From: Microglena sp. YARC
Taxonomy: Eukaryota; Chlorophyta; Chlorophyceae; Chlamydomonadales; Chlamydomonadaceae
NCBI GenBank assembly: GCA_022414725.1
Contig: CM039464.1
Span: forward strand, 39,601,445 to 39,665,444
DNA: 64,000 bases
Reading direction: 5' to 3'
Positions 35,677 to 59,560 of this stretch are shown piece by piece. Every line of letters begins with the position of its first letter. Position 1 is the first letter of the stretch. Both the position numbers and the translations under genes were made by a program. Below the pieces are notes generated by a model. That model ran no database searches. It was not told the DNA's origin and saw only the letters and a program-made list of their open reading frames with translations.

Positions 35677-35694
35677 TTGTACCACTGCTTTACA

Positions 35695-41931: not shown

Positions 41932-42315
41932 TGTCAGCATGAATTGCGGTGCTCTCACGCGTTTTATGACTTGGTGACTACTTATGTACTTCCTTAGAAC
42001 TATCGGCCCAGACAGTGTTTCTGTCTGTACTGTGTCAGCTTCCCGTAGACTGTGTCATCCTTCATGACACGGTGACAGCTTCCTGTTGACTGCGTCATCG
42101 GTCTCTCACTGACACACTCTGTATAGCCGGTGCCTGGCTTAAATTTCCTGACTTAGGGTCTAGTCAGGTTACAGGCATCCGCCTCTCCCACCGCTGGTGT
42201 TCTTTGGCGTCCGCCTGTCCTTGTAACGCTATTCTTGTCTCCGTGTATAGATTGGCGGCGTCTGTCTCCGCTGCATACATCTCTCTCCACTCTTCGAAGT
42301 GCTTTCTAGCTGATA
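41932..42315 (+). repeat. 3' LTR
   Basis: 384 bp. Differences from the 5' LTR are AAGTTT/AAATTT, a CC shift in the CTCTCCACC run and one extra G in TTGGCG. It ends GCTGATA before the GAGGT duplication. Confidence 0.93.
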
Positions 42316-42609
42316 GAGGTCTGAGTAAGAAGATAGCAAAAATCATGTGCAGGGCTGACCGCTCTCCCCGACCCCCCCCCCCCCCCCCCTAAAGGTGCTC
42401 AGAATGACCTGGAAATGGCGTTTAAATGGCATAAACATCACCATGAATCATGCCCCATTCACGGACATAATCAATCGGCATACCGGTACGTTAATTGTTG
42501 GAGGCTTGGGCAACACCTGCCTCAATTATAATTAGTTCGTTATCCCTCATGGAATGATATTTTAATGGTGGGAATCTCACTCCACTTTATTGTGTACGTG
42601 CACTTCAGG

Positions 42610-42956
42610 TAATTTGGCCTGAATTTCTAAAATGTCATCGCACCGCATCGGGTGTCGCGCACGGTGTGATACCTACGCGTATCTAACACAAATCCGATGC
42701 ACATCTAACACAAATCTAATTCGGATCTATCCGAAACTGTCTGTACGGGGGCGAATTCTGGTTTGTTAGCGCGCATTGAATGAGTCGCAGTTCGACAAAG
42801 AGAGATTCGAGTTTGTATGGCTGTAATCTGTATGGATTTTGCGTGGTTTACACTCGTTTTTCGAAGCGCACACGAAATACTTGTCGTCAATTAAAGCCGC
42901 ATTGAGTCTTACGCAACCGCATTCACTGTGGTCCTGTACTCAAAAGAAAGCCGTGT
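42610..42956. other. Left margin of the foreign region, no gene seen
   Basis: Array sequence stops at GTGCACTTCAGGTA (about 42609). The following DNA is unrelated to the array and has no long frame. 42890-42956 (CTTACGCAACCGCATTCACT) matches part of the 275-bp repeats at 55851-56950, linking this margin to the element on the right. Confidence 0.6.
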
Positions 42957-43195
42957 GTATCAAGCAGGCTTCTGCTTGACAACCCTAGTGAATTTCTGAA
43001 GGGAGGAGCGCGGGCACCGTGTAGCGGTGCCGAGGGATTCAGTTGCTGACTCGCACAGTGAATACGTGGGGTGCCGCCAACCTATTCAACGGATTCCTGA
43101 AGGCCCTGCGTTCTCAAGCAGACTTCTGGTTGACAACTCTGTTGGATTTATGAAAGGGAAATCGCGGGCAGTGGAATTGAGCTGCTGACTCTCTC
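42957..43195. repeat. Two copies of the dispersed hairpin module
   Basis: Copy 1 at about 42957-43053 has TCAAGCAGGCTTCTGCTTGA (8-bp stem), then a GAATTTCTGAAGGG block, a CACCG/CGGTG hairpin and GTTGCTGACTCGC. Copy 2 at about 43113-43195 has a weaker first hairpin and ends GAGCTGCTGACTC. Other copies lie at 44583, 54200, 55004, 55855 and further right. Confidence 0.8.
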
Positions 43196-43379
43196 ACTAC
43201 TGTCGCCGGAGCTGGCACTGTCGCTGCCCCTGGCACTACTGTCACCGACATCCTCAGCGATGTGCCCACTGCCACGCGGCGCAAGGCGGTCATGGATGCT
43301 ATCGAGCAGCGCGTGATGGCCAACGACGCGAGCCGTCATGCCTATAATAATGGTGTAAACGCGCGCATTGGGATAGCAT

Positions 43380-43796
43380 ATGAGCAGCTCGACAGCGATC
43401 ATGGCGCACATGACAACCAATGTCGTGTACGCGTTGGTTGAGCACAAGTTCATTCAGAAGGATGAGATCGTCGTCAAGGTGGGCAGGACGTCGAAGCCCT
43501 TTGGTCAGCGACTTTCTCAGTACCCGAAGAACTCAAAGATGATCTTCGCCATCCACGTACTTAATCCGCGTGCTTGTGTGGAGGCTGAGACTGCCCTGCT
43601 CCGGTACCTTCGCGGAGACCCTCGAGTCAAGCCCCGTCGCGACGTTGGATACGAGTACTACCAAATTGACGCGGGTGATGCAGGTGCCGTCTTTCGGGAG
43701 ATGGCCGATGTCGTATTCCAGTACGTGTGGACATGTGGCGTCGACAGCCTTGATTGCGGTACCGAGGACGTGCCACACGACCTTTGCCGTTGTTGA
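43380..43796 (+). CDS. GIY-YIG-like endonuclease domain protein
   Basis: A 138-aa product. Residues about 15-80 resemble the T5orf172/MUG113 branch of the GIY-YIG nuclease superfamily: VVYALVE stands for GIY, VKVGRT for YIG, QRLSQYP follows, and an acidic helix VEAETALLRYL would supply the catalytic glutamate. Such domains are common in large DNA viruses and mobile elements. The ATG at 43380 is the first in frame. Just upstream, 43292-43441 carries another coding-like frame (from MDAIEQRVMANDASR) that overlaps in a different phase, which suggests a longer N-terminus lost to a frameshift. Endonuclease activity is inferred from the motif pattern only. Confidence 0.65.
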   Translation: MSSSTAIMAHMTTNVVYALVEHKFIQKDEIVVKVGRTSKPFGQRLSQYPKNSKMIFAIHVLNPRACVEAETALLRYLRGDPRVKPRRDVGYEYYQIDAGDAGAVFREMADVVFQYVWTCGVDSLDCGTEDVPHDLCRC

Positions 43797-43869
43797 GCGA
43801 GAGAAGGAGCGAACGTCTTGAGGCGCAATACCCCACGTTCCGTGGAGGTACTTGCATCTATGCTGTGCA

Positions 43870-44190
43870 CGGACCTGACGCCGAGCAACGCGCACGCCAC
43901 CGCTGCCCTTTCTGGCCACGAGCTGTCCATGTACAGCTCTCCGGGCACAGGCGGTAGTTCCTCTCCTCCTGAGTCCGCTTGCCCTTGACCTGCACGCGCT
44001 TGGTCTCGCTCACCATGTCGATACCACGCGCATGCAGGTCAAGGGCAAACGCACTCAGGAGGAGAGGAACTACCGCCTGTGCCCGGAGAGTGTCTCCCGG
44101 ATGCTGGAGCTCTTGAAACTTCGTCTTCTGCGCACGGACCTCACGCCGCCGCTGCCCTTTCGGGTCACGAGCTGTCCATGTACAGCCATA
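43870..44190. repeat. Composite inverted and direct repeat behind the endonuclease gene
   Basis: 43937-43994 and 44034-44091 are a 58-bp inverted pair with about two mismatches (CTCTCCGGGCACAGG against CCTGTGCCCGGAGAG) around a 39-bp spacer. Outside the pair, a direct repeat ending GAGCTGTCCATGTACAG occurs at about 43935 and 44184. Coding-like peptide sequence (KGKRTQEERNYRLCPES) appears on both strands because of the inversion, so this looks like a duplicated gene fragment. Confidence 0.75.
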
Positions 44191-44217
44191 ATCCATCTGC
44201 AAACAACGGATTGTATT

Positions 44218-44345
44218 CAACAAGCGGCGGAGCCCCTTTCACCTCCCCCCAGCGGAGCGACCGGGGGCGACCGGAGGGGAGCCCCCACAAAGGAGTCCGC
44301 GAGGAACCGAGCGGGTGGGCGACCGGAGGGGAGCCCACAGTTCAC
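44218..44345. repeat. GC-rich 128-bp dispersed repeat, copy 1
   Basis: Starts AAGCGGCGGAGCCCCTTTC and ends GACCGGAGGGGAGCCCACAG. It is rich in self-complementary GGGGAGCCCC/GGGGCTCC words. Nearly identical copies are at 53000-53112 and 57609-57736. Confidence 0.85.
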
Positions 44346-44740
44346 ATCAAGCATTAGACACACTACTGTGTAACTGTCAAGTCTTACACAATGTGTATGT
44401 TGTTTGTAAAAGATCCACTGTAACACTTGGGCTTAATAAGATAAGGGTTTGATAATATCACTGTAACGCTTGAGCTTCTTTCTCACTGGAACGCTTGGGC
44501 TTCTTTCTCACTGAAAGTCATCGGAGTGCACTGTAACGCTTGAGCTTATCACTGGAACACTTGGGCGTTTCCGAGGTGTCGTCTCAAGCAGGCTTCTGCT
44601 TGACAACTCTATCGGGATTGTGAAGGGGAAACCGCGGGCCCCATGGAGTGGGGCAGTGGAATTCAGCGCCTCCAGCAATGCGTATTATTTCTGAGAGCCA
44701 TACAAACGCTACAAACGCTACAGGCCCACGCCCCTCGTCT
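44346..44740. other. Short-motif-rich spacer outside the left inverted repeat
   Basis: Four copies of CACTG[T/G]AACGCTTGGGCTT-like 20-mers at 44405-44575, then one hairpin module at 44583-44670 (TCAAGCAGGCTTCTGCTTGA and CCCCATGGAGTGGGG). No gene is seen. The same 20-mers recur at 57024-57062 and 57750-57785. Confidence 0.7.
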
Positions 44741-44941
44741 TACAGTCAACGGAATACTAAAATGAAACCGCTTCGTGTACGGCACACCTTACGGTGTAAC
44801 CTAATGGTGTAGAAATCCACGGGGCAGTGGAACACCAATACGATTTTGAATCAACAAATTGCAGGATGTTAACGAGAATATCGTGGTTCTTTTTTTAGAT
44901 CACGACTCTCCATCCTGCAGACTCCGTATCGTTCTTTTGTC
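44741..44941 (+). repeat. Left terminal inverted repeat
   Basis: 201 bp, the partner of 59135-59340 on the opposite strand. It contains a small hairpin, ACACCTTACGGTGT. Confidence 0.92.
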
Positions 44942-44968
44942 ATACATGACGGAAACATGGTGAAACAT

Positions 44969-45004
44969 GGGCTCAGCTCACCCAACATTTTCTCTATTTA
45001 TTAA
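44969..45004 (+). repeat. Inner 36-bp inverted-repeat block
   Basis: GGGCTCAGCTCACCC followed by AACATTTTCTCTATTTATTAA is an exact reverse complement of 57171-57206 and recurs in the other two 186-bp units there. Confidence 0.85.
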
Positions 45005-45015
45005 ACGATGATCAC

Positions 45016-45040
45016 ATGTCAAGCATGGCTCTGCTTGACA
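45016..45040. repeat. Hairpin motif next to the left inverted repeat
   Basis: TCAAGCATGGCTCTGCTTGA has a 7-bp stem. It differs by one base from the reverse complement of the hairpins at 58718 and 58849 near the right end, so the two ends are partly symmetrical. Confidence 0.7.
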
Positions 45041-45094
45041 AAACTGGCGGTTTCGATTGGGGAATTTTTTAATATATTAAAATACCTTTTCTAC

Positions 45095-48000
45095 TTGTTA
45101 CATGAAAGTCCAAAAGTTACACCAAAAAGAGAAAGTCCCTACAGGGGAAGGAAATGATAAAGGTTTCCTTTTTTGGTGTAACTTTTTAGCTTTTGTGTAA
45201 CACTATGTATATATAACCTAACGTGGCGGTCTGTGTACCTCGTAAGACCTAAAAACAATGGGGAGATGTCAAGCTGAGTTGAGACAACACGAGACAACGG
45301 TTGTCTTGGGATCAGACCCCTAAAGGCCTCAAATACCGGATTCGGCACGCCCCTACACGAAATCCTCAATATTACACCAAAAAAGGAAACTTTCTCTATT
45401 CAAGTCCCCTTATAGGACTTTCCATTTTGGTGTAATTTTACTACTTTCGTGTAGGAAGTAAAAAGTTGTATATATATATACAATGTACCTCGTAAGACCT
45501 AAAAACAATAAAGAGATGTCAAGCTGAGTTGAGACAACACGAGACAACGGTTGTCTTGGGATCAGACCCCTAAAGGCCTCAAATACCGGATTCGGCACGC
45601 CCCTACACGAAATCCTCAATATTACACCAAACATGGAAACTTTCTCTATTCAAGTCCCCTTATAGGACTTTCCATTTTGGTGTAATTTTACTACTTTCGT
45701 GTAGGAAGTAAAAAGTTGTATATATATATACAATGTACCTCGTAAGACCTAAAAACAATGGGGAGATGTCAAGCTGAGTTGAGACAACACGAGACAACGG
45801 TTGTCTTGGGATCAGACCCCTAAAGGCCTCAAATACCGGATTCGGCACGCCCCTACACGAAATCCTCAATATTACACCAAAAAAGGAAACTTTCTCTATT
45901 CAAGTCCCCTTATAGGACTTTCCATTTTGGTGTAATTTTACTACTTTCGTGTAGGAAGTAAAAAGTTGTATATATATATACAATGTACCTCGTAAGACCT
46001 AAAAACAATGGGGAGATGTCAAGCTGAGTTGAGACAACACGAGACAACGGTTGTCTTGGGATCAGACCCCTAAAGGCCTCAAATACCGGATTCGGCACGC
46101 CCCTACACGAAATCCTCAATATTACACCAAAAAAGGAAACTTTCTCTATTCAAGTCCCCTTATAGGACTTTCCATTTTGGTGTAATTTTACTACTTTCGT
46201 GTAGGAAGTAAAAAGTTGTATATATATATACAATGTACCTCGTAAGACCTAAAAACAATGGGGAGATGTCAAGCTGAGTTGAGACAACACGAGACAACGG
46301 TTGTCTTGGGATCAGACCCCTAAAGGCCTCAAATACCGGATTCGGCACGCCCCTACACGAAATCCTCAATATTACACCAAAACAGGAAACTTTCTCTATT
46401 CAAGTCCCCTTATAGGACTTTCCATTTTGGTGTAATTTTACTACTTTCGTGTAGGAAGTAAAAAGTTGTATATATATATATACAATGTACCTCGTAAGAC
46501 CTAAAAACAATGGGGAGATGTCAAGCTGAGTTGAGACAACACGAGACAACGGTTGTCTTGGGATCAGACCCCTAAAGGCCTCAAATACCGGATTCGGCAC
46601 GCCCCTACACGAAATCCTCAATATTACACCAAACATGGAAACTTTCTCTATTCAAGTCCCCTTATAGGACTTTCCATTTTGGTGTAATTTTACTACTTTC
46701 GTGTAGGAAGTAAAAAGTTGTATATATATATACAATGTACCTCGTAAGACCTAAAAACAATGGGGAGATGTCAAGCTGAGTTGAGACAACACGAGACAAC
46801 GGTTGTCTTGGGATCAGACCCCTAAAGGCCTCAAATACCGGATTCGGCACGCCCCTACACGAAATCCTCAATATTACACCAAACATGGAAACTTTCTCTA
46901 TTCAAGTCCCCTTATAGGACTTTCCATTTTGGTGTAATTTTACTACTTTCGTGTAGGAAGTAAAAAGTTGTATATATATATACAATGTACCTCGTAAGAC
47001 CTAAAAACAATGGGGAGATGTCAAGCTGAGTTGAGACAACACGAGACAACGGTTGTCTTGGGATCAGACCCCTAAAGGCCTCAAATACCGGATTCGGCAC
47101 GCCCCTACACGAAATCCTCAATATTACACCAAACATGGAAACTTTCTCTATTCAAGTCCCCTTATAGGACTTTCCATTTTGGTGTAATTTTACTACTTTC
47201 GTGTAGGAAGTAAAAAGTTGTATATATATATACAATGTACCTCGTAAGACCTAAAAACAATGGGGAGATGTCAAGCTGAGTTGAGACAACACGAGACAAC
47301 GGTTGTCTTGGGATCAGACCCCTAAAGGCCTCAAATACCGGATTCGGCACGCCCCTACACGAAATCCTCAATATTACACCAAACATGGAAACTTTCTCTA
47401 TTCAAGTCCCCTTATAGGACTTTCCATTTTGGTGTAATTTTACTACTTTCGTGTAGGAAGTAAAAAAGTTGTATATATATATACAATGCACCTCGTAAGA
47501 CCTAAAAACAATGGGGAGATGTCAAGCTGAGTTGAGACAACACGAGACAACGGTTGTCTTGGGATCAGACCCCTAAAGGCCTCAAATACCGGATTCGGCA
47601 CGCCCCTACACGAAATCCTCAATATTACACCAAACATGGAAACTTTCTCTATTCAAGTCCCCTTATAGGACTTTCCATTTTGGTGTAATTTTACTACTTT
47701 CGTGTAGGAAGTAAAAAGTTGTATATATATATACAATGTACCTCGTAAGACCTAAAAACAATGGGGAGATGTCAAGCTGAGTTGAGACAACACGAGACAA
47801 CGGTTGTCTTGGGATCAGACCCCTAAAGGCCTCAAATACCGGATTCGGCACGCCCCTACACGAAATCCTCAATATTACACCAAAAAAGGAAACTTTCTCT
47901 ATTCAAGTCCCCTTATAGGACTTTCCATTTTGGTGTAATTTTACTACTTTCGTGTAGGAAGTAAAAAGTTGTATATATATATACAATGCACCTCGTAAGA

Positions 48001-49552
48001 CCTAAAAACAATGGGGAGATGTCAAGCTGAGTTGAGACAACACGAGACAACGGTTGTCTTGGATCAGACCCCTAAAGGCCTCAAATACCGGATTCGGCAC
48101 GCCCCTACACGAAATCCTCAATATTACACCAAACATGGAAACTTTCTCTATTCAAGTCCCCTTATAGGACTTTCCATTTTGGTGTAATTTTACTACTTTC
48201 GTGTAGGAAGTAAAAAGTTGTATATATATATACAATGTACCTCGTAAGACCTAAAAACAATGGGGAGATGTCAAGCTGAGTTGAGACAACACGAGACAAC
48301 GGTTGTCTTGGGATCAGACCCCTAAAGGCCTCAAATACCGGATTCGGCACGCCCCTACACGAAATCCTCAATATTACACCAAACATGGAAACTTTCTCTA
48401 TTCAAGTCCCCTTATAGGACTTTCCATTTTGGTGTAATTTTACTACTTTCGTGTAGGAAGTAAAAAGTTGTATATATATATACAATGTACCTCGTAAGAC
48501 CTAAAAACAATGGGGAGATGTCAAGCTGAGTTGAGACAACACGAGACAACGGTTGTCTTGGGATCAGACCCCTAAAGGCCTCAAATACCGGATTCGGCAC
48601 GCCCCTACACGAAATCCTCAATATTACACCAAAACATGGAAACTTTCTCTATTCAAGTCCCCTTATAGGACTTTCCATTTTGGTGTAATTTTACTACTTT
48701 CGTGTAGGAAGTAAAAAGTTGTATATCTATATACAATGTACCTCGTAAGACCTAAAAACAATAAAGAGATGTCAAGCTGAGTTGAGACAACACGAGACAA
48801 CGGTTGTCTTGGGATCAGACCCCTAAAGGCCTCAAATACCGGATTCGGCACGCCCCTACACGAAATCCTCAATATTACACCAAAAAAGGAAACTTTCTCT
48901 ATTCAAGTCCCCTTATAGGACTTTCCATTTTGGTGTAATTTTACTACTTTCGTGTAGGAAGTAAAAAGTTGTATATATATATACAATGTACCTCGTAAGA
49001 CCTAAAAACAATGGGGAGATGTCAAGCTGAGTTGAGACAACACGAGACAACGGTTGTCTTGGGATCAGACCCCTAAAGGCCTCAAATACCGGATTCGGCA
49101 CGCCCCTACACGAAATCCTCAATATTACACCAAACATGGAAACTTTCTCTATTCAAGTCCCCTTATAGGACTTTCCATTTTGGTGTAATTTTACTACTTT
49201 CGTGTAGGAAGTAAAAAGTTGTATATATATATACAATGTACCTCGTAAGACCTAAAAACAATGGGGAGATGTCAAGCTGAGTTGAGACAACACGAGACAA
49301 CGGTTGTCTTTGGATCAGACCCCTAAAGGCCTCAAATACCGGATTCGGCACGCCCCTACACGAAATCCTCAATATTACACAAAAAATGGAAACTTTCTCT
49401 ATTCAAGTCCCCTTATAGGACTTTCCATTTTGGTGTAATTTTACTACTTTCGTGTAGGAAGTAAAAAGTTGTATATATATATACAATGTACCTCGTAAGA
49501 CCTAAAAACAATGGGGAGATGTCAAGCTGAGTTGAGACAACACGAGACAACG
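45095..49552. repeat. 250-bp satellite with nested palindromes, ~17.6 copies
   Basis: A diverged first unit (about 45095-45350) is followed by near-identical monomers with a period of 250-252 bases, ending within a monomer at 49552. Each carries a symmetrical block: CCTACACGAAA and ATTACACC on one side, GGTGTAAT and TTTCGTGTAGG on the other, around an AAGTCC/GGACTT core. TTGTATATATATATACAA and AGACAACGGTTGTCT are further palindromes. The minus strand has a 69-74-codon open frame per monomer, whose ATG exists only in the CCAAACATGG variant, so I do not call it a gene. Possible roles are origin, enhancer or packaging repeat. Confidence 0.93.
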
Positions 49553-50011
49553 TCTGAAGAGGATAATAAGGTCAGTTAAAGAGTCTTCTGCGTTGTTTAC
49601 AACACTTCATTCGAGGACGTGTGGATGACGAGACTAGACGAGGAGTGACGAGAATCGTCCACCGCATCCGTGTGTCATGAATGTACTGACGGGGGGCTGC
49701 GAAAGCCGTCCTGTGTCGTGTGAGAATGCGGGCGGGCTCTCTTTTACACAACCCACTCTTATTCTTCACTCGCGTGAGTGTGGTCTATTTTGTGAGTGTG
49801 GACGATAAGTCATTCCGTATGTAATGCGTCGACACTCGTTACTTACACTCGGGTGTTCCATCATCATGCACTTCAGTGTGTGTGCGAGTGAAGGGTCTGA
49901 GAAGCGATTGAGCATGTGTATAAGGGAGAGGGGAAATGTATAATGAGGAGAAGAGTAGATGAATGAATTAACAATTTATTGTAAAAGAAACGAATAACAG
50001 CTCGCACATTA
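49553..50011. other. Spacer between satellite and replication genes
   Basis: Unique sequence with no convincing frame. GTGTGAGT-type words are frequent at 49770-49900. This would be the place for a promoter of the following genes, but I see no clear TATA box. Confidence 0.5.
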
Positions 50012-50317
50012 ATGATGTCATCGAACAAGGAGACTAGGTTCTTCACGCCAAAAAACAAAAATGGAGACAAGGGGATATCAACGTTGTCAAAGAAACGATA
50101 CTTCGAGCTGGAATAGAGAGTGAAGAGCATACTGGGGGATAGATGCGAGGCAGAGGCGGGTATGGTCATGAAGGCGATGCGTGAGATCATGAAGTTCGAC
50201 CCGAATGTCTCAAGGTACAGCGAGGATGTCAGGGAGGCGCTTGGGGAGAGCTGCAGAAAGTGGAGGCAACGGAATAAAGAGGAGAAGAATGCGGCAAGAC
50301 AACAGGTTTTAGTATGA
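50012..50317 (+). pseudogene. Small basic protein gene with an in-frame TAG, upstream of the primase
   Basis: From the ATG pair at 50012/50015 a frame reads MMSSNKETRFFTPKNKNGDK and continues to a TAG at 50114-50116, then goes on in the same frame for 67 more codons (RVKSILGDRCEAEAG, later EALGESCRKWRQRNKEEKNAARQ) to TGA at 50315. Both halves have coding-like, lysine/arginine- and glutamate-rich, helical composition. It ends about 108 bases before the primase ATG. A nonsense mutation, a recoded stop or a consensus error could explain the TAG. I recognise no family; the charged C-terminus suggests nucleic-acid binding but proves nothing. Confidence 0.5.
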
Positions 50318-50424
50318 AACGCAACACATATTCATGGATGCACAAGCAAACACGCGAAAAAAATCATCATCTTAGGGGGGCTTAAAGGAAATGCTGTATG
50401 AATGCATAACATCAATTGAACGAC

Positions 50425-52983
50425 ATGGCATCCTACGAAGAGTTGCAGAAGCTCAGCGCGTGGCTGAAGAGATCTGAGGTGAGTGTGGGAAGAACAGTAT
50501 TGATGCCCATGAATGACTTTAAAGAGCCTATGCGCAAGCATTTAGGAAAAGCGAAGTGGGGATGGTCCGAAGCGGACGCGTACGCGAACAACAACCCAAC
50601 ACACAAGGCATGGGGAATGTTGCTGGATGGATTGGTTGTGGTCGACGCGGACGACGCAGAGACAGTGCAGTGGTTGGAGAGGATGGAAGATGAAGATGGT
50701 GAGGTGGGTGAGGCCATGCAGAGGTGTGCCATCCAAGAGACTAGGAAGGGACGCCACTACATGTTCTTGCGCCCGACATGGGCGGACGAGGAGGGGTACT
50801 ATGACAGTGCACGACAAGTCGATGATGATGCAAGGAAGGTTGATATGAAGAGCCTGTGCCGGACAGGGACCAGGGGTCTGCTGTCTGTTGCGCCCACTGA
50901 GGGGAAGGCATGGAAGGAGGGAAGGGCTCCGTGGGAGCTGGAGTCGATACCGTACATTCCAAAGGCGCTGATGGAGAGGGTGGCTGTGGCGAAGAAGAAG
51001 AATAAAAGGACGAGTAAGAGTACGGGAGCGGCGGGATACTCAAATGCAAAGGTGGAAAACACATCAACAACAACAACGGAGGTGGAGCAGGGGATAATGA
51101 TGCCGACAAGCTTCATGGAGAGCACGCATGTAGAGAAGATTCTACTGCTCCTAGGAAAAAGCAGGTGGGATTCCAGAGACACATGGCGAGGAGTGGCGAC
51201 GGCATTGAAGAACGAGCACGGCGAGGCGTACAAGTCGCTATGGAAAAAAATGTCAAAGGTGTCGCCAAGATACGATGAGGAAGCCGCAGAGAAGTTATGG
51301 GAGACGGTGGGAAGGCCCGACTATGACGGGCCGAAGATGACAATGAAGTCGGTGGTCAAGTGGGCCGGCGAGGACGACCCGCGCGGGTACGCTGTGTACC
51401 GAGCATCTTCGATTCCAAAAATAATACGGGACAGTTGGGACAAGGGAGACCGTGGATTGGGGGAGATTGTGCACTATCTTCTGAAAGGGACGTTGAAGAA
51501 GACGGGGAAGGGATGCAGCGACTACTACATATTCGATGAGGACACGTGCAGGTGGGTCAATGTGGAGGAGGGGTGGGTGAAGAGCGTGGCGAGCAAGGTC
51601 TTAGAAGGGATACTCAGGGACGTCGATTTATGGATATCGACACTGGCCGCACAGTTGTGCATCGGAGTGGTGGTGGGAAAAGAAGAAGAAGAAGACTCCA
51701 GGAGTAAAGCAGATCTGGATGCGAAGAAAAAAGAAGTTGCCAGGCTGATCCGGTACATACAGTCTTCCCGTGGAGTGAAGAACACGATGGACTTCGCAGG
51801 GCCACTTCTCATTGACGAGACGTTCGAGCAACGCCTGGATGGCAATAGGCACTTGATCGGGATCAAGGGGGGGAGCGTGGTGGACCTCAGGACAGGTCAG
51901 AAGAGACAGAGGGTGGCAGAAGATATGGTTCACAACGAACTGGACGTGGAGTACGATAATAATGACGACGACAATGACAAAAAACATGCGATGACCAATG
52001 CCGCACGCGCAGAGTGGATGCACAGGATTGTCGAGAAGATCATGGGTGGGGACGAGGACATGGCGCGGTTTCTTCAACGTCTTCTTGGGTACGCCACAAC
52101 GGGCGAAGTAAGAGAGGAGGTTTTTCCTATATGGACAGGGACAGGGCGGAACGGAAAGGGGCTGTTGACGCAGGCGCTGCAGCAGCTGCTAGGGGCATAC
52201 TACAAGGAGATGAATTGTGCGATCATAAGCGAATCAAGGGTGTGCAGCAACATCGACGCAGAGCGTGCAAAGTTGATAGGAGCGAGAGTCACGGTCTTCA
52301 ACGAGCTCAAGTCTGGGGAGAAGCTGAAGACGAACGAGGTCCAACTGCTGACAGGAGGAGACGGTTTCCCGGCAAAGGCGCTTTACAAGGACCCGGTGAC
52401 GGTGATGCCTCGACATCTCGCAATTTTAGTAACCAACTACATGCCAGAGATGTCCGATGTGATCGTGGCAATGGTCGAAAGAATTTTGGTTTTTCATTTT
52501 CCAGTGACGTTCAGGGATCTCATACCTGGGGAGAGCGAGACCGCGACGCTGCGGCAGTGCGACAGAACCATGAAGGATAAACTGAAGTCTCCAGAGGGTC
52601 AGTCTTCTCTGTTTGCCTGGCTGGTCGAGGGCCCGGTGGCGTGGTACGGGGGGGCGGAGGGCCTGAAGGCCGTGGCGCCAAAGAAGGTCACCGAATTTAC
52701 CAGACAATACTTGGCGGAGCAGGACGGCGTGCAAGCGTTCCTCGCCGAGAACTGCGAGTTTGCGGAAGATTTCAGGGAGTCGAGCGTTGCCTTGTTCCAC
52801 ATGTATCTCGAGGAAAGCGGGGACAGTAACGATCGAGAAAAGTGGTTCCACAGGCAGATGAAGAACAAGGGGTTCGTAAAAAAAGTGCTTCAAATCAAAG
52901 GGAAGTCGACACGCGGGTATATGGGATTGCGGCTACGACATGATGATGGTGCACTCACGACTCGCGCAAGTGAAGAGGAATAA
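50425..52983 (+). CDS. PrimPol/SF3 helicase replication protein (D5-like)
   Basis: An 852-aa protein from the first ATG (GACATGG context) to TAA. The N-terminal archaeo-eukaryotic primase/polymerase domain has motif I GLVVVDADD (Asp 74 and 76), motif II KGRHYMFLR (His 111) and motif III KVDMKS (Asp 140). A PriCT-2-like region spans about 230-310 (FMESTHVEKILLLL, DTWRGVATAL). A D5_N-like region leads to a superfamily 3 helicase with Walker A GTGRNGKG (572-579), Walker B GARVTVFNE (619-627) and motif C HLAILVTNYMPEM (664-676). This architecture initiates and unwinds DNA in virophages, giant viruses, phage P4-type plasmids and related elements. All catalytic motifs look intact and there is no frame break, unlike the neighbouring genes. 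It should replicate the element's own DNA. Codon use is AAG/GAG-rich and unlike the copia genes. Confidence 0.94.
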   Translation: MASYEELQKLSAWLKRSEVSVGRTVLMPMNDFKEPMRKHLGKAKWGWSEADAYANNNPTHKAWGMLLDGLVVVDADDAETVQWLERMEDEDGEVGEAMQRCAIQETRKGRHYMFLRPTWADEEGYYDSARQVDDDARKVDMKSLCRTGTRGLLSVAPTEGKAWKEGRAPWELESIPYIPKALMERVAVAKKKNKRTSKSTGAAGYSNAKVENTSTTTTEVEQGIMMPTSFMESTHVEKILLLLGKSRWDSRDTWRGVATALKNEHGEAYKSLWKKMSKVSPRYDEEAAEKLWETVGRPDYDGPKMTMKSVVKWAGEDDPRGYAVYRASSIPKIIRDSWDKGDRGLGEIVHYLLKGTLKKTGKGCSDYYIFDEDTCRWVNVEEGWVKSVASKVLEGILRDVDLWISTLAAQLCIGVVVGKEEEEDSRSKADLDAKKKEVARLIRYIQSSRGVKNTMDFAGPLLIDETFEQRLDGNRHLIGIKGGSVVDLRTGQKRQRVAEDMVHNELDVEYDNNDDDNDKKHAMTNAARAEWMHRIVEKIMGGDEDMARFLQRLLGYATTGEVREEVFPIWTGTGRNGKGLLTQALQQLLGAYYKEMNCAIISESRVCSNIDAERAKLIGARVTVFNELKSGEKLKTNEVQLLTGGDGFPAKALYKDPVTVMPRHLAILVTNYMPEMSDVIVAMVERILVFHFPVTFRDLIPGESETATLRQCDRTMKDKLKSPEGQSSLFAWLVEGPVAWYGGAEGLKAVAPKKVTEFTRQYLAEQDGVQAFLAENCEFAEDFRESSVALFHMYLEESGDSNDREKWFHRQMKNKGFVKKVLQIKGKSTRGYMGLRLRHDDGALTTRASEEE

Positions 52984-52999
52984 GATGCACACACCACGC

Positions 53000-53112
53000 A
53001 AGCGGCGGAGCCCCTTTCACCTCTTCCCCCACCGGGGGCGACCGAAGGGGAGCCCCCACGGGAAGTACGCGAGGAACCGAGCGGGTGGGCGACCGGAGGG
53101 GAGCCCACAGTG
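53000..53112. repeat. GC-rich dispersed repeat, copy 2
   Basis: Same sequence as 44218-44345 but lacking about 15 bases in the first third. It starts 17 bases after the primase stop codon, so its hairpins would lie in the primase transcript's 3' untranslated region. Confidence 0.85.
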
Positions 53113-53364
53113 TAACATAAACCAGCAGACACATTACTGATTTACGGAACGGAAATCACACACACACACACACTCACTCACACAGACTAAAGGGGTCCTG
53201 AAAGATTTGGCATGACCAGCATAGATTACAAGTCACCAACATCATCAAGGATTCAATTGCTCATCTTGTCCGCGAGTTGCGTCACACACACGGGATCTCA
53301 ACTACCTCTCATTCTGTTTACATCAGGCTCCCATCGGGTGTGAAGCCACGAATTATGATCCCAA
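53113..53364. other. Spacer with short CA repeat
   Basis: A CACACACACACACTCACTCACACA run at 53158-53184 is followed by unique sequence. No gene is seen. Confidence 0.6.
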
Positions 53365-53631
53365 TCACTCTGGTGTCCAACTAAAACTCCTAACTACGTT
53401 TTTGATCTCAGAGATGTCTGTGAGAGGCGTTGGCCAGGTAGAGAATCCATGATTCACAGGATGTGCCAGCCACATTGTAACCCGATGTCTAAAGTCATCG
53501 ATAGCCTCTGATATTGTTCCCCCCTGACATGCCAACAAGGACTCTTCCACAGTTCGAATACTGCAAATGAAACATGATATCGGACTAATGTCGTCTGTCT
53601 TCTGAATGGTGATTGTGTACGTTGGTGGCAT
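53365..53631 (-). CDS. Hypothetical 88-aa protein
   Basis: From the ATG at 53631 the minus strand encodes MPPTYTITIQKTDDISPISC, then a mixed sequence (EAIDDFRHRVTMWLAHPVNH) ending FSWTPE. Composition is that of a globular protein and contains no low complexity, but no family is recognised. A second minus-strand frame overlaps it (53454-53684) and looks less protein-like. It may be a small element gene or a gene remnant. Confidence 0.35.
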   Translation of the reverse strand: MPPTYTITIQKTDDISPISCFICSIRTVEESLLACQGGTISEAIDDFRHRVTMWLAHPVNHGFSTWPTPLTDISEIKNVVRSFSWTPE

Positions 53632-53647
53632 TTGTATGATGATATGA

Positions 53648-53908
53648 TTTCATCAGAATGGTTGGGCTTTACAGTTGTTCTCAAATAAAGTGGGACACAC
53701 CTTATACTCGGAAAAACTGCAGGTCAAGCTGCTGCAGCTGTCGCACTTCAACCCCGCGTACACGCAGTACATGAACATAATCATGGACCACGCCTGCTAC
53801 CAGCAGACGTATGTGTACGAACGGGACCGCCGCTGGGCGAAGACGGACCTGCAAGACTCGCTGCTGCCGGTGCTCAGGCGAATCGTGCAGAGAATCCACC
53901 TACTTTAG
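53648..53908 (+). CDS. 5'-truncated ORF, hypothetical
   Basis: An open frame from 53648 to TAG at 53906 encodes a coding-like peptide (YSEKLQVKLLQLSHFNPAYT, MDHACYQQTYVYERDRRW) with strong G/C third-position bias. The first ATG is only at 53771, well inside the conserved-looking part, so the real start is missing or on an upstream exon. No family is recognised. The bias differs from neighbouring genes, suggesting a fragment of separate origin. Confidence 0.4.
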   Translation, partial: FHQNGWALQLFSNKVGHTLYSEKLQVKLLQLSHFNPAYTQYMNIIMDHACYQQTYVYERDRRWAKTDLQDSLLPVLRRIVQRIHLL

Positions 53909-54148
53909 ATGCTTTGCCACGACCTTTTTTTTCGCCCGACTACCTCCTACTTTTTGATATGAATTTTTGTTCGCACCACCAGTTTGATTTGCGTTAGCTA
54001 ATGCATCATCTATACGTTTTGTTTCTGTTGCAGTTTGATTTGCCTTCCTTTGTCTCCTAGCTCTTGCAATTTGTTCAAATTGTTGGCTAATTCTATTATC
54101 ACGTTCTTTACGTTCTGTTTCTGGGTTTTTTGAAAGAAACTCAAACAT
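53900..54148 (-). CDS. Hypothetical basic 82-aa protein
   Basis: From the ATG at 54148 the minus strand gives MFEFLSKNPETERKERDNRI, then a long basic helix (FEQIARARRQRKANQ), a polar stretch rich in Asn and Gly, and a Lys-rich tail (GGSRAKKKVVAKHLK). It resembles small nucleic-acid-binding or virion-associated proteins by composition only. It converges with the ORF ending at 53908, overlapping by 9 bases. Confidence 0.4.
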   Translation of the reverse strand: MFEFLSKNPETERKERDNRISQQFEQIARARRQRKANQTATETKRIDDALANANQTGGANKNSYQKVGGSRAKKKVVAKHLK

Positions 54149-54187
54149 TTCATTATACAAAGATAAAAAAAAATCAACGCATCTGAA

Positions 54188-54252
54188 AAAACCCAGTTGA
54201 ATTTCTGAAGGGGGAGGCGGGCACCGCGGAGCGGTGCAGAGGGATTCAGTTG
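54188..54252. repeat. Hairpin module, right half only
   Basis: CCCAGTTGAATTTCTGAAGG, then a GCACCGC/GCGGTGC hairpin and GGGATTCAGTTGTT. The TCAAGCAG hairpin that normally precedes this block is absent. It lies between the start sites of two minus-strand genes. Confidence 0.7.
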
Positions 54253-54330
54253 TTACAGAATGCCGGATGACTCAGATCAAACTATTTTAATCATCATTTC
54301 TGGACTCCTCATCACATCGCCTGACGTAAA

Positions 54331-54822
54331 TTAGCATAGGGTTCGTTCGCCATCCTGTTCGGTTGAATCTGGGTCGGACGACTCATGCATGTTGGGGAAG
54401 GGGATTCCGTATTGTTTGCAAAGATCCTCATTGAGACGCCTGTCATGATCGTTCAGGGAATTCCATTTCTCGACAGTCATGCTTGACAGTTCGTACCTCA
54501 GTTGCTTCTCAAGTGCTTCTGCGCGCTCAGTCTCAATCTTCAGTCGAGCAGCAACTGCCTTATTTCGAGCGCGCTCAGTCTCAAGATCAATCTCCAGACT
54601 ATTCACTCGAGCAGCATCTGCCTTCTTTCGAGAGTGCTCAATCTCCAGACTATTCACTCGAGCAGAATCTGCCTTAATTCGAGCGCGCTCAGTCTCAATC
54701 TTCAGTCGAGCAGCAACTGCCTTATTTCGAGCGCGCTCAGTCTCAAGCTCAATCCTTGCTATGTAAATAAAAGCGAAGGTAGCGATGCAGATAGGTAGTA
54801 GTAGTAGAGACTTGTCAATCAT
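54331..54822 (-). CDS. Membrane-anchored coiled-coil protein with internal repeats
   Basis: A 163-aa protein from the ATG at 54822. Residues about 5-23 (LLLLPICIATFAFIYIA) form one membrane segment with a short N-terminus. Residues about 25-115 are a charged coiled coil built from repeated blocks IETERARNKAVAARL and SARVNSLEIE. The C-terminus (KWNSLNDHDRRLNEDLCKQY) looks globular and ends acidic. It probably projects a rod from a membrane. The DNA repeats inside the coiled coil show recent expansion. No family is recognised. Confidence 0.65.
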   Translation of the reverse strand: MIDKSLLLLPICIATFAFIYIARIELETERARNKAVAARLKIETERARIKADSARVNSLEIEHSRKKADAARVNSLEIDLETERARNKAVAARLKIETERAEALEKQLRYELSSMTVEKWNSLNDHDRRLNEDLCKQYGIPFPNMHESSDPDSTEQDGERTLC

Positions 54823-55125
54823 ATTGATTGTTGATTAAGTATAGCTTTCCACTTGTTGTCCAGAATAAGCGCAATATAGCGTAGGTGCGTTTCAACTTCC
54901 AATTACGTACACACATAGTTAAACTCACTCAGATTAAAGGGGTCATGAAGCTCTGACTTGTTTACACACGTGTTTCGAGGCGCATTGGGAACATGTGTCG
55001 TCGCAAGCAGACTTCTGCTTGACAACACTATGGGAATTCTGAAGGGGGGGACGCGGGTCCCGCGGAGCGGGACAGTGGAATTGAGCTGCTGACTCGCGTG
55101 CGTGCATCTGTACGGATATGACTTG
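54823..55125. repeat. Spacer with one full hairpin module
   Basis: A complete module lies at about 55002-55098: CAAGCAGACTTCTGCTTGAC, a GGGAATTCTGAAGGGG block, a GTCCCGC/GCGGGAC hairpin and GAGCTGCTGACTCGC. The rest shows no feature. Confidence 0.75.
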
Positions 55126-55149
55126 TGGCGCGCGAGGCCACCCGAGAGC

Positions 55150-55535
55150 ACTTGACGCACGGAGGCTTTCACAGCCCCCCCGTTCGTCCATTCATTCATC
55201 TTCACACACACCAAGGCGGCTTGCGCAGCCCCCCGTTCGTCCATTCATTCATCTTCACACACACCAAGGCGGCTTTCTCAAGCAGACCCCCCGTCCATTC
55301 ATTCATCTTCACACACACCAAGGCGGCTTGCGCAGCCCCCCGTTCGTCCATTCATTCATCTTCACACACACCAAGGCGGCTTTAGCAGCCCCCCGTCAGT
55401 CCATTCATTCATCTTCACACACACGCACGGCGGCTTGCGCAGCCCCCCGTTCGTCCATTCATTCATCTTCACACATACCACGGCGGCTTTAGCAGCCCCC
55501 CGTCAGTCCATTCATTCTCACACACGCACGGCGGC
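55150..55535. repeat. 53-61-bp minisatellite
   Basis: About seven units of GGCGGCTTGCGCAGCCCCC followed by a TTCGTCCATTCATTCATC block and a CACACACACC run. All forward frames are open through it, so no ORF is called. Confidence 0.88.
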
Positions 55536-55850
55536 TTGATATCGAGCCTCGAGTGAAGTGTGTGGCTCACGCCCGACAGCATCGATGGGGATTGCCCAGA
55601 CCCAGATGTCTGATAATACACGAGGTTGGCTTACCTCTCGGATCGATGAGAGTGCTGTCAAGGAAGCCGACCACAGCTTGTGAAGACGAGCAGTTCCTCC
55701 TCTAGGGAACCGTTAGACTCGCAACTTCCAAAAAAACTGGGAAAGCTACCTGGCACTCTGTACGGTCCTTGAGGGTTCGATGATGATTGATGCATTGGAT
55801 GCGATTCATTATTCTTCGGTATGATTCCGTCATCTCCAAGGGCCTTGTGG
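55536..55850. other. Spacer, no gene seen
   Basis: Unique sequence between two repeat blocks. No convincing frame or RNA is seen. Confidence 0.5.
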
Positions 55851-56950
55851 TCCCAAGCAGGCTTCTGCTTGACAATATGGGGGTATTTACATGGGAATCG
55901 TTTTCACCCCCATAACACATATACACTAATACACAATTTTTAAGGATATTAGAATAGTAATATAGGGACCCAGTCCCAGACAAGGCCCTTTGTTAAAAGA
56001 GAACCAAACAAAGTTTAGTAAATTGGCGTGTTTTTGTGTTTCCGTGTTTTGAATGAGCCGCCGCATCTTACGCAATCGCATTCACTGTAGGTCCATAGGA
56101 CTGTCATCCAAAGAAAACCGAATGGTCCCAAGCAGGCTTCTGCTTGACAATATGGGGGTATTTACATGGGAATCGTTTTCACCCCCATAACACATATACA
56201 CTAATACACAATTTTTAAGGATATTAGAATAGTAATATAGGGACCCAGTCCCAGACAAGGCCCTTTGTTTAAAGAGAACCAAACCAAGTTTAGTAAATTG
56301 GCGTGTTTTTGTGTTTCCGTGTTTTGAATGAGCCGCCGCATCTTACGCAATCGCATTCACTGTAGGTCCATAGGACTGTCATCCAAAGAAAACCGAATGG
56401 TCCCAAGCAGGCTTCTGCTTGACAATATGGGGGTATTTACATGGGAATCGTTTTCACCCCCATAACACATATACACTAATACACAATTTTTAAGGATATT
56501 AGAATAGTAATATAGGGACCCAGTCCCAGACAAGGCCCTTTGTTAAAAGAGAACCAAACAAAGTTTAGTAAATTGGCGTGTTTTTGTGTTTCCGTGTTTT
56601 GAATGAGCCGCCGCATCTTACGCAATCGCATTCACTGTAGGTCCATAGGACTGTCATCCAAAGAAAACCGAATGGTCCCAAGCAGGCTTCTGCTTGACAA
56701 TATGGGGGTATTTACATGGGAATCGTTTTCACCCCCATAACACATATACACTAATACACAATTTTTAAGGATATTAGAATAGTAATATAGGGACCCAGTC
56801 CCAGACAAGGCCCTTTGTTAAAAGAGAACCAAACCAAGTTTAGTAAATTGGCGTGTTTTTGTGTTTCCGTGTTTTGCATTAGCCACCGCATCTTACGCAA
56901 CCGCATTCACTGTGGTAGTGGGGTCATCCAAAGAAACCACACGATCACAA
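55851..56950. repeat. 275-bp tandem repeat, four copies
   Basis: Units start TCCCAAGCAGGCTTCTGCTT at 55851, 56126, 56401 and 56676, a period of exactly 275. Each carries the palindromic hairpin motif, a GGGGGTATTTACATGGG/CCCCCATAAC pair and ends with CGCATTCACTGTAGGTCC. The first three are nearly identical and the last diverges at its end. Confidence 0.93.
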
Positions 56951-57059
56951 GCAGACTCTATTGGTTTCTGAAGGGGGAGCGCGGGCAGATTGGATTCATT
57001 TGATGGCTCGCGTACACCATTCACTGTAACGCTTGGGCTTCTCACTGTAACACTTGGGC

Positions 57060-57604
57060 TCGTCAACATGAGAGCATTCAAAATAAATTGGATGGCCCCA
57101 AGAGTTTGTGTATGGCTAGATATGACTTAAACCGACCTGTGGCCAAGAGGAAAGGGTCAGGAATCAGGTATTAATAAATAGAGAAAATGTTGGGTGAGCT
57201 GAGCCCCCTAGGGCTACACCCAGAGCAGGTACTTGGGCAAGATCTTTTTAAATGAGAGAGCATTAAAAATAAATTGGATGGCCCCAAGAGTTTGTGTATG
57301 GCTAGATATGACTTAAACCGACCTGTGGCCAAGAGGCAAGGGTCAGGAATCAGGTATTAATAAATAGAGAAAATGTTGGGTGAGCTGAGCCCCCTAGGGT
57401 TACACCTAGAGCAGGTACTTGGGCAAGATCTTTTTAAATGAGAGAGCATTAAAAATAAATTGGATGGCCCCAAGAGTTTGTGTATGGCTAGATATGACTT
57501 AAACCGACCTGTGGCCAAGAGGAAAGGGTCAGGAATCAGGTATTAATAAATAGAGAAAATGTTGGGTGAGCTGAGCCCCCTAGGGTTACACCCAGAGCAG
57601 GTAA
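57060..57604. repeat. 186-bp tandem repeat, three copies
   Basis: GATGGCCCCAAGAGTTTGTG recurs at 57091, 57277 and 57463. Each unit contains the 36-bp block that is inverted at 44969-45004, next to the left terminal repeat. Confidence 0.92.
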
Positions 57605-57608
57605 TAGT

Positions 57609-57736
57609 CAACAAGCGGCGGAGCCCCTTTCACCTCCCCACAGCGGAGCGACCGGGGGCGACCGGAGGGGAGCCCCCACAAAGGAGTCCGCGAGGAACCG
57701 AGCGGGTGGGCGACCGGAGGGGAGCCCACAGTTCAC
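57609..57736. repeat. GC-rich dispersed repeat, copy 3
   Basis: Nearly identical to 44218-44345 in sequence and orientation, followed by CACTGTAACGCTTGGGCTTC motifs, as at the left copy. Confidence 0.85.
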
Positions 57737-57853
57737 ATCATGCAGCAGACTCTCACTGTAACGCTTGGGCTTCTCACTGTAACAATCAAGGATCCAAAGC
57801 ATGGTACATTGTGCCCCAGCCCAGGAGAGGAGGCGTGCGTGTGGCTATGCAGG

Positions 57854-58597
57854 TTAAGACACTACACAAGATTTTGATGCGATCATGCCTGCCTGCAGAA
57901 TGAACGATCTATCCCCTTTCCTAAGATCTGTTGTAATGGCGCGCAGAATGCGATCCACCTGATCGGATGATGTGTGCACTCCTCCACCCGTCTTGCACAT
58001 CCAGGCGAAACACTCACAGTTCCATCTGATAAGGTGGTACTCGTGCAAGCTTGCATGGGGCAACTGGATAAGCAGACTGGCAATGTTGACTGCTCGCTCA
58101 CGTTGCATCGCCTCACCACTGTAAGGCACGCATCCAAACGTGCGGTGTCCAGCTAAGAACACGTCGTAGCGCACAAACTGAAGTTTGGCATCGCGCATTT
58201 TGCTATTCCCGGTGGGGGAGCTGAAGTTAGCGATGCTTGGTGTATCGCTGGTGTGAGGGCGCGATACAATGCCATGGTGTGCATAACCATTGCGCCACCC
58301 CCCGATCATCACCACAACGTGGTCGCCGTGGCGTAAGGTCTCGAAAGCCAGAGCTGTGTTGTGCACCACGGTGTTTGTTGGGGCCAACGACCAATGGCCA
58401 GCATCCTGGTCCTCCAGCAATTGCAATAACGAAGCCATCCTGAGTCGTGAGCAACGGAGCAAATGCCATTGCAGTGAGGTGATTGCAGATCTCCATTGGC
58501 TCGGGTACAGGCAGCTCTGAATGTGTACTGTCAAACTGCGCCATACGTTGGAAGGAATCTGCTTCATGCATAACATGCTCAGTGTTGGTATCTTCAT
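57854..58597 (-). CDS. LRAT-like (H-box/NC) domain protein, probable frameshift near the N-terminus
   Basis: The 247-aa frame from the ATG at 58597 has GDHVVVMIGG (91-100), an H-box HHGIV (107-111) and NCECFAWMC (193-201). This order and spacing match the LRAT/NlpC-P60-type thiol fold, whose His and Cys act in acyl transfer or phospholipid hydrolysis. The N-terminal 60 residues look poor, whereas another frame from the ATG at 58571 reads MHEADSFQRMAQFDSTHSEL and is more protein-like, so a frameshift near 58395-58430 probably joins them. Such proteins modify lipids or tether to membranes. The role in this element is unknown. Confidence 0.65.
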   Translation of the reverse strand: MKIPTLSMLCMKQIPSNVWRSLTVHIQSCLYPSQWRSAITSLQWHLLRCSRLRMASLLQLLEDQDAGHWSLAPTNTVVHNTALAFETLRHGDHVVVMIGGWRNGYAHHGIVSRPHTSDTPSIANFSSPTGNSKMRDAKLQFVRYDVFLAGHRTFGCVPYSGEAMQRERAVNIASLLIQLPHASLHEYHLIRWNCECFAWMCKTGGGVHTSSDQVDRILRAITTDLRKGDRSFILQAGMIASKSCVVS

Positions 58598-58986
58598 CGT
58601 GATTAGATGAGACGACGATGAAGGGGTTATATTTGTTCCAGGTTCAGTGAAGCTCAGTGAAGCTCAGTGAGTGTGCGTCAGCCCACTCCAGCCATGCTCC
58701 CCAAACACAAAGGGATTTCAAGCAGAGCCCTGCTTGAGACCCCAGGGTCTTCGTAGAAAATGCCACAGCTGAATGCCATTGCCCGCGAAGCGGGCCCGCC
58801 CCCCCCCCCCCCCACATTCCCTCAAAAACACAAAGGGGGTGTCAAGCAGAGCCCTGCTTGAGACCTCAGGATCTTCGTAGGCATGCGAATAAAGCCCATG
58901 TCTCCTACAGTCGGCGGAACATCCCAATAAACGGGATAAGGTGTCGACAGACGTTATAGTGTATTAGTGGATGGTGGTCCTACAAA
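58598..58986. repeat. Right-end spacer with paired hairpin repeats
   Basis: Two copies of TCAAGCAGAGCCCTGCTTGA (58718 and 58849), each followed by AGACCYCAGGRTCTTCGTAG, surround a GCCCGCGAAGCGGGC hairpin and a C16 run at 58799-58813. Confidence 0.8.
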
Positions 58987-59097
58987 ATGGCCCGTCCAGC
59001 AAAGAAACCTCCTTTCATGACGCATTGCACATCAACAAAGACCCCGTGTTCTTTTGATCGCCTCTTCCACGGTACCGGGGAAGAGGCGATCGCTTAA
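58987..59097 (+). CDS. Possible 36-aa ORF
   Basis: AAAATGG start context and a frame beginning MARPAKKPPFMTHCTSTKTP, ending TAA next to the right inverted repeat. It overlaps the palindrome at 59056-59093. Too short to judge. Confidence 0.2.
   Translation: MARPAKKPPFMTHCTSTKTPCSFDRLFHGTGEEAIA
59055..59093. terminator. Strong hairpin beside the right inverted repeat
   Basis: GATCGCCTCTTCC and GGAAGAGGCGATC are perfect 13-bp arms around an ACGGTACCGG-type loop. It could end transcripts or act as a structural site at the element end. No T-run follows. Confidence 0.5.
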
Positions 59098-59134
59098 GTG
59101 CGGCTGGTCCTTCAATGTACCTCTCGAAAGTACC

Positions 59135-59340
59135 GACAAAAGAACGATACGGAGTCTGCAGGATGGTTTTTTAGAGCCGTGATCTAAAAAAGAACCACGA
59201 TATTCTCGTTAACATCTTGCAATTTGTTGATTCAAAATCGTATTGGTGTTCCACTGCCCCGTGGATTTCTACACCATTAGGTTACACCGTAAGGTGTGCC
59301 GTACACGAAGCGGTTTCATTTTAGTATTCCGTTGACTGTA
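59135..59340 (-). repeat. Right terminal inverted repeat
   Basis: 206 bp, the reverse complement of 44741-44941 apart from a 6-base insertion in an A-run and three other small differences. Confidence 0.92.
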
Positions 59341-59560
59341 CTGGATTGATTCATTGATCATGCAAACACACGCACGCACGCACGCACGCACGTGAAGAAG
59401 AGTGATAGGCGAACGCACACAAGAGACATACCCCCCGTGGTGGGGGGCAGGGGGGATCTTCCTTCCTTCCAATTAAAGTCCTAACATTTTAACACTAATG
59501 GGCGTTCCTGCATCCCGGCGGAACACAAGGTTGCTCTCTGTCGCGCTTCCGGGCAGTACA
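59341..59560. other. Host-side flank with CGCA microsatellite
   Basis: CACGCACGCACGCACGCACG lies at about 59370-59392. No repeat of the element type is found from here on, which supports 59340 as its right end. Confidence 0.6.

Follow-up and report, generated by a model that had tools for sequence, protein, structure and literature searches.

Probable rearranged endogenous viral DNA with transposon-derived inverted repeats, a PrimPol-SF3 helicase family and a candidate replication origin in Microglena sp. YARC

Introduction

Short non-autonomous transposons and multi-copy viral insertions have both been described from the DNA of large viruses and their hosts. Miniature inverted-repeat transposable elements (MITEs) named Submariner are reported from the giant virus Pandoravirus salinus (PMC4495683), and viral MITEs are treated in a further report (PMC6004678). 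Endogenous polinton-like viruses (PLVs) of protists show massive multi-copy insertion, with archaeo-eukaryotic primase (AEP)-superfamily 3 (SF3) helicase PLVs in cryptophytes, and primase-SF3 fusions, T5orf172, Peptidase_S74 and phage-fibre proteins are reported among them (PMC12220804). The present study concerns a 64,000-nucleotide stretch of a chromosome of the green alga Microglena sp. YARC (G000:C3:39601445-39665444; hereafter the window), in which two facing repeats enclose a 14.6-kb segment (44741-59340) carrying an intact PrimPol-SF3 helicase gene. In an initial annotation, this segment had been described as an inverted-repeat element, possibly a capsid-less parasitic replicon or a viral relic. 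In this study, the segment, part of a eukaryotic chromosome, was found very probably to consist of rearranged endogenous viral DNA, with MITE copies as its arms, a member of a PrimPol family, an origin candidate upstream of that gene, and no termini of its own.

Results

The inverted arms and their genomic copies

The genome examined comprises 568 Mb in 2390 contigs. The inverted repeats annotated near both ends of the segment are present: the facing arms 44741-44895 and 59186-59340 are 99% identical over 155 nucleotides, a second block (44910-44941 and 59135-59166) is 100% identical over 32 nucleotides, and 14.29 kb separate the arms. They correspond to the following features.

58906-59340, plus strand: full-length MITE of 435 bp, TA-CAGTC...GACTG-TA, whose outer half is the right arm
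44741-44941, minus strand: half copy of the MITE, 201 bp, which is the left arm and aligns to 228-433 of the 438-base query at 95.7%

The left arm is dispersed in the genome, as the best 40 of 2210 first-look candidates, which were those scored, were all 98-100% identical to it, and most of these 40 matches span only its first 201 bases. Eight loci with arm copies were extracted, the first (L001) being the window itself. Alignment of the copies defined a unit that begins with TA, carries CAGTCGGCGGAACAGTAAAATGAAAC and GGTTTCATTTTAGTATTCCGTTGACTG at its two ends, closes with TA, and has short terminal inverted repeats (CAGTCGGCGGAACAGTAAAATG / CATTTTAGTATTCCGTTGACTG). Eighteen copies had both ends in the extracted DNA. 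The 17 copies listed with flanks were 415-435 bp long (432 bp in 12 of them), and TA stood at the left end in 17/17; the pattern used to find the right end itself includes the final TA and tolerates up to 3 mismatches. A TA target is typical of Tc1/mariner transposons, as in the Submariner MITEs of giant viruses. Moreover, 15 distinct flank pairs occurred among the 17 copies, and the two pairs occurring twice represent duplicated neighbourhoods, one of which is that of the window and C5:3.82 Mb. At L003 and L004, no match to the window of 100 bases or more lay outside the MITE and the opposite arm; elsewhere in the window L006 had only shorter matches (<100 bases), and L007 had one further match of 190 columns at 74%. 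A single empty-site candidate was obtained among the 17 copies (L028), a weak one consisting of a 69-base neighbouring duplicate in AT-rich DNA. An open reading frame (ORF) in L028 gave matches to DDE_3 and HTH_Tnp_IS630, both below the cut-off. The arms are two separate copies, one full and one half and in opposite orientation, of a common Tc1/mariner-like MITE of about 432 bp with TA ends. Dispersed repeats with many solo copies genome-wide, which the initial annotation had named as speaking against its own interpretation, were what was found as far as the copies were read.

Furthermore, related loci run through the arms. Contig C680 matches window positions 42609-43812, 43323-44961 (through the left arm, 96.9%), 45003-46299, 48486-56248 and 57256-58726; past 58726 it enters a different gene, the right arm being absent from that position. 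Contig C5 matches 49237-53173 and then 57751-59496, straight across the right arm (the stretch aligned to 57751-59496 being C5:3823412-3825146), with further pieces of similarity to 61767 and then to C3:39675050, beyond the window. The left arm was not found in the C5 stretch examined. Because related loci continue through each arm (C680 on the left and C5 on the right), neither arm is a terminus, and the claim that the arms bound a 14.6-kb segment had to be abandoned. Terminal inverted repeats of the kind that bound PLVs, virophages and Mavericks were not found here, the arms being MITEs.

The PrimPol gene and the hairpins upstream

The replication gene and the DNA leading to it comprise the following features.

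45082-45205, no strand: long hairpin dyad with arms TTACACCAAAA.../...TTTTGGTGTAA and an outer stem, proposed as an origin core from DNA folding and genome copies
45234-49552, no strand: tandem array of a 250-bp unit repeated 17.3 times with a dyad in each unit, proposed as an iteron array (unit hairpin z -6.68)
49850-50424, plus strand: conserved leader between array and PrimPol ATG, containing the dispersed segment 50011-50299 (blastn)
50416-52983, plus strand: ORF of an intact PrimPol / PriCT-2 / D5-type SF3 helicase gene, 852 aa from the first ATG at 50425 (Pfam, PHROG, alignment and the ratio of nonsynonymous to synonymous substitution, dN/dS)

The intact D5-like replication protein of the initial annotation was confirmed by matches to D5_N (5.6e-12), PriCT_2 (1.4e-11) and Prim-Pol (1.5e-4, 0.1 bit below the cut-off) in Pfam and to DNA primase in PHROG (1.5e-63). 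Residues D77, D79, H114, D143, K581, E630 and N674 (numbered from 50416) were invariant in 25/25 aligned sequences, and we take them to be the catalytic DxD, xH and D motifs of archaeo-eukaryotic PrimPol and the SF3 motifs. A protein search gave 47 matches among 7999 scored, those of at least 40% identity coming from jgi, ena, lgn, ncbi and eukprot. In the PDB, the protein matched three different sequences (1.7e-7 at best), each bearing the name putative primase C962R, and the IMG/VR scan found no relative with the single protein and two distant ones (28-29%) with the alignment. The same genome holds at least 50 relatives, at about 53 loci among the matches listed (53 scored of 1234 candidates, yielding 58 rows), and 15 of these 58 rows are free of stops over 800 residues or more. 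The copy in C680, with 14 stops in the matched stretch, is broken. Among seven copies picked for intact frames, dN/dS was 0.18-0.35 at dS 0.03-0.56, which indicates purifying selection. Since intact copies differ in this pattern, the family would have been copied by functional replicons.

Folding of 45090-45205 as DNA gave a z of -6.63, with 0/200 shuffles as good, and all eight hairpins folded (the window dyad, the window unit and six others) gave z values of -4.6 to -9.0 with 0/200 shuffles each. Genome copies of the window dyad, taken as the best 40 of 323 candidates, were 93-100% identical. A dyad was present upstream of 10/10 PrimPol copies having their 5' part (window, C680, C5:3.82 Mb, C1:81.40 Mb, C1:45.37 Mb, C2:88.87 Mb, C1:72.42 Mb, C4:28.42 Mb, C2:56.71 Mb and C944); the C-terminal fragment C1:81395305, which lacks the 5' part and has no dyad that was found nearby, was excluded from the ten. 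Tandem Repeats Finder (TRF) called an array upstream in 8/10 copies, with units of 231-456 bp. The C5 copy has three dyads, where TRF calls no array, and the C944 copy has one dyad, which matches window 45082-45205. Array and ATG are 277-805 bases apart in the five arrays measured and about 0.6-1 kb apart by coordinates at the remaining loci, and blastn blocks of the leader begin at 49792-49858 in L022, L031, L032, L033 and L036. Within the loci and window scanned, the two-arm dyad pattern, which misses the 344/456 type, was confined to DNA upstream of PrimPol.

The units fall into more than one type. The outer stem of the TTACACCAAAA...TTTTGGTGTAA core has one mismatch in some units. In the 344/456-bp units, TTTCATCAAAA...TTTTGGTG takes the place of this core, and the outer stem differs in sequence. 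No convincing alignment was obtained between 250-type and 344/456-bp units, as 8-26/300 shuffles equalled the score on the better strand. Alignments above all 300 shuffles came from the single dyad 45082-45205 only, with the 250-bp unit (79 vs a shuffle maximum of 28) and with the 344-bp unit (35 vs 27). In addition, proximity was counted on contigs C1-C5 with one position per locus, weaker ATPase rows excluded, from 50 PrimPol positions (58 rows), 40 capsid (59), 60 ATPase-like (153 matches) and 25 dyad (45); rotated positions supplied the expectation, and four distances were tried. A listed PrimPol lay within 10 kb of 4/25 dyad loci, compared with 0.08 for rotated positions. Judged by sequence, the PrimPol family and its hairpin arrays make a good candidate for an initiator-origin pair. 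A literature search by title and abstract start, in limited wording, returned no comparable arrays in PLVs or virophages.

Virion-type genes around related copies

The lack of capsid, ATPase, protease, integrase and PolB genes seen in the initial annotation holds for the six ORFs of the segment scanned with Pfam; it does not extend to the surroundings of related PrimPol copies, where virion-type genes occur. At C4:28.42 Mb, a phage-fibre repeat (22.3 bits, cut-off 22) and RCC1 repeats lie in a frame 0.7 kb downstream of PrimPol, Peptidase_S74 lies about 20 kb from PrimPol in C680, and an RNA ligase lies about 68 kb from PrimPol in C1. A second D5_N protein and more LRAT-like proteins were also found in these regions. 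L034:6975-9998 is a 1008-aa frame in which many RCC1 repeats follow a phage-fibre repeat.

A P-loop protein near related copies matched AAA_14 weakly (4e-6 at best), and from motifs recognised by eye we take it to be an A32-like ATPase. A protein search with a pair of these ATPases gave 4 matches, all without Pfam domains, and the IMG/VR scan with the pair gave no relative. The giant-virus capsid model PF04451 gave 59 matches from 62 candidates, all of them scored, at dozens of loci, and none in 14 control genomes. Thirty-five of the 59 rows cover 194 or more of the 196 positions, 30 of them free of stops, and many of the genes lie in open frames of 421-481 aa. The capsid gene nearest to the window PrimPol is 150 kb away (G000:C3:39802490-39803113; the intervening C3 DNA was read to C3:39685444), and the nearest PrimPol-capsid pair in the genome list is 40 kb apart. 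An ATPase-like gene lay within 100 kb of 14/50 PrimPols, at distances of 30-95 kb, against a rotated mean of 1.39 (0/2000), and PF04451 lay within 200 kb of 7/50 PrimPols against 1.65 (0.15%). Proximity between ATPase-like genes and PF04451 was not significant (3/60 within 100 kb, 7%; 4/60 within 200 kb, 12%).

Other features of the window and of related loci

The remaining features of the window are as follows.

35277-42609, plus strand: Copia-type retroelement (about 35.3-42.4 kb) and adjoining sequence, with gag_pre-integrs and rve above the cut-off and RVT_2 and Pol_BBD below
43377-43796, plus strand: T5orf172 (GIY-YIG) ORF outside the left arm (Pfam 21.9 bits, cut-off 20)
52999-53130, no strand: dispersed GC-rich repeat close behind the PrimPol stop, with further copies at 44214-44359 and 57605-57750
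54331-54822, minus strand: repetitive ORF, annotated earlier as a transmembrane coiled-coil protein, with related pieces near two other PrimPol copies
57854-58597, minus strand: multi-copy LRAT-like protein, itself below the Pfam cut-off

The LRAT-like assignment made earlier stands despite that score, as 12/19 database relatives, 42-52% identical, carry PF04970; closely similar proteins are found in the EukProt gene set (up to 96% for LRAT). No significant Pfam family was found for the ORF at 54331-54822. DNA similar to the T5orf172 ORF occurs at the C680, C1:81.41 Mb and C1:45.37 Mb loci, and a longer frame at one such locus (L022:5657-7153) had no Pfam match. The GC-rich repeats were considered as strong hairpins, which was ruled out by folding two copies (z -0.09 and -0.12); by eye, the frame of the ATPase-like gene of L026 also takes in sequence of this repeat. 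Segments recurring at several related loci are 43.3-44.2 kb with T5orf172, LRAT, and 55.5-55.8 kb. The Copia-type retroelement had no match in the C680 stretch examined. At positions 5378-34097, tRNA-Ser(GCT)-like matches lie in tandem repeats of 1.16-1.4 kb, which measure 1.55 kb in C680, and on account of these arrays and the retroelement the window was taken as nuclear eukaryotic DNA.

Several further ORFs were observed at neighbouring and related loci. To the right of the window on C3, adjoining ORFs (L019:5874-7747) have serine resolvase and MerR domains and TnpB/OrfB-type domains, and they are presumably an IS607-type element. L020:7754-9988 is an uninterrupted Rpb2-like RNA polymerase frame of 745 aa that stops just short of the stretch's edge. 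A multi-copy family of related ORFs, 309-348 aa long (L012:1819-2745, L020:4088-5059 and L026:1816-2859), adjoins LRAT in C680, and the L012 and L020 members had no Pfam or PHROG family. The ORF at L037:861-1670 gave a weak CHAT match (0.029, below the cut-off) and looks caspase-like by eye, with similar starts in L012 and L025.

Discussion

These results point strongly to rearranged endogenous viral DNA: a viral origin and a rearrangement of the region are supported, and the inverted-repeat-bounded element is not. The parent replicon exceeded 14.6 kb and was probably viral, because the PrimPols cluster near A32-like ATPase genes and, more weakly, near giant-virus capsid genes; it may have been a giant virus, a PLV-like virus or a mixture. 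A capsid-less parasite, the other proposal of the initial annotation, is not the best explanation, because the shared DNA passes both arms and virion-type genes lie near related copies. As to function, the PrimPol-helicase or a partner may bind the upstream dyads as a replication origin; binding would be followed by melting of AT-rich DNA, priming and unwinding.

Several observations weigh against a viral parent and an origin. The ATPase assignment consists of by-eye motifs and the weak AAA_14 match, and a PDB search with the ATPase pair gave none up to E = 1. The PrimPol-PF04451 link is not significant at 50 kb (1/50, 35%) or 100 kb (3/50, 6%). Long-period tandem arrays are common (38 rows with a period of at least 150 in 334 kb), and one dyad type, shared by descent, accounts for eight of the ten dyad loci, which are therefore not independent. 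Moreover, 21/25 dyad loci have no PrimPol within 10 kb among the PrimPol matches listed. Three of those were examined, and 3/3 carry PrimPol sequence within the adjoining 1 kb: the PrimPol 5' part lies alongside at C4:3.876 Mb and C4:18.490 Mb, and a 3' remnant lies beside a piece resembling the TnpB-like ORF of L019 at C1:141.102 Mb.

The arrays could also be promoters or other structural DNA. That array and dyad serve the PrimPol gene as promoter or chromatin element, rather than as an origin, would agree with the five measured arrays, whose place 0.28-0.8 kb before the ATG is also a promoter position, and it is a possible, if somewhat unlikely, explanation. It accounts less well for a 250-bp unit amplified 17-fold and for long self-complementary stems kept despite changed sequence. 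Such amplification and stem upkeep are more typical of initiator sites.

The viral parent must also be weighed against a small capsid-less mobile replicon, transpoviron- or linear-plasmid-like, formed by the hairpin array and PrimPol within viral and host DNA. The block kept at most loci includes little beyond array and PrimPol, which are the main block kept at the ten loci while the flanks are shuffled; capsid or ATPase-like genes lie within 10 kb of 0/50 PrimPols, and the purifying selection on PrimPol fits such a replicon too. Against it, the neighbouring segments listed above recur at several loci, PrimPol clusters with ATPase-like genes at tens of kilobases, and no termini were found, so that this explanation appears improbable. 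We give equally little weight to its extension, a self-contained replicon moving among viral and host DNA whose initiator and origin repeats diverged together, with 250-type arrays accompanying one PrimPol clade and 344/456-type arrays another. Finally, an element of 14.6 kb with true terminal inverted repeats, its own primase-helicase and no capsid genes, favoured by the facing, 99-100% identical arms and the intact PrimPol, was rejected as extremely improbable, as the arms are MITE copies with TA ends and relatives continue through each arm, one of them (C5) in a stretch without the left arm.

Two consequences follow from rearranged endogenous viral DNA as the preferred explanation. A false positive is removed, in that two inverted MITEs around a viral gene mimic a small virus with terminal inverted repeats, and a search for solo copies of long facing repeats should therefore precede the naming of an element. 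Furthermore, a testable initiator-origin pair is offered for PrimPol-SF3 viral replicons of protists.

With transpovirons and linear plasmids, the locus would share the idea of a capsid-less replicon, and no termini were found here. Transpovirons carry an SF1 (superfamily 1) helicase, as opposed to the PrimPol-SF3 protein of this locus. The MITEs reported from giant viruses are likewise short non-autonomous transposons in large-virus DNA (PMC4495683; PMC6004678); the window MITE differs in lying in endogenous viral DNA and elsewhere in chromosomes, and it is likened to them by kind, not by sequence. Multi-copy insertion and primase-SF3, T5orf172, Peptidase_S74 and phage-fibre genes are common to this genome and the protist PLVs reported earlier (PMC12220804); unlike those PLVs, no true terminal repeats were found here, and the genome capsid search used the nucleocytoplasmic large DNA virus (NCLDV) model PF04451 only. 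From giant endogenous viral elements (Nucleocytoviricota), the locus differs in the spacing of PrimPol and capsid genes, the nearest pair being 40 kb apart and that of the window 150 kb. It shares with them the presence of NCLDV capsid genes in the genome, at dozens of PF04451 loci, together with D5_N, RNA ligase and LRAT-like genes around related copies.

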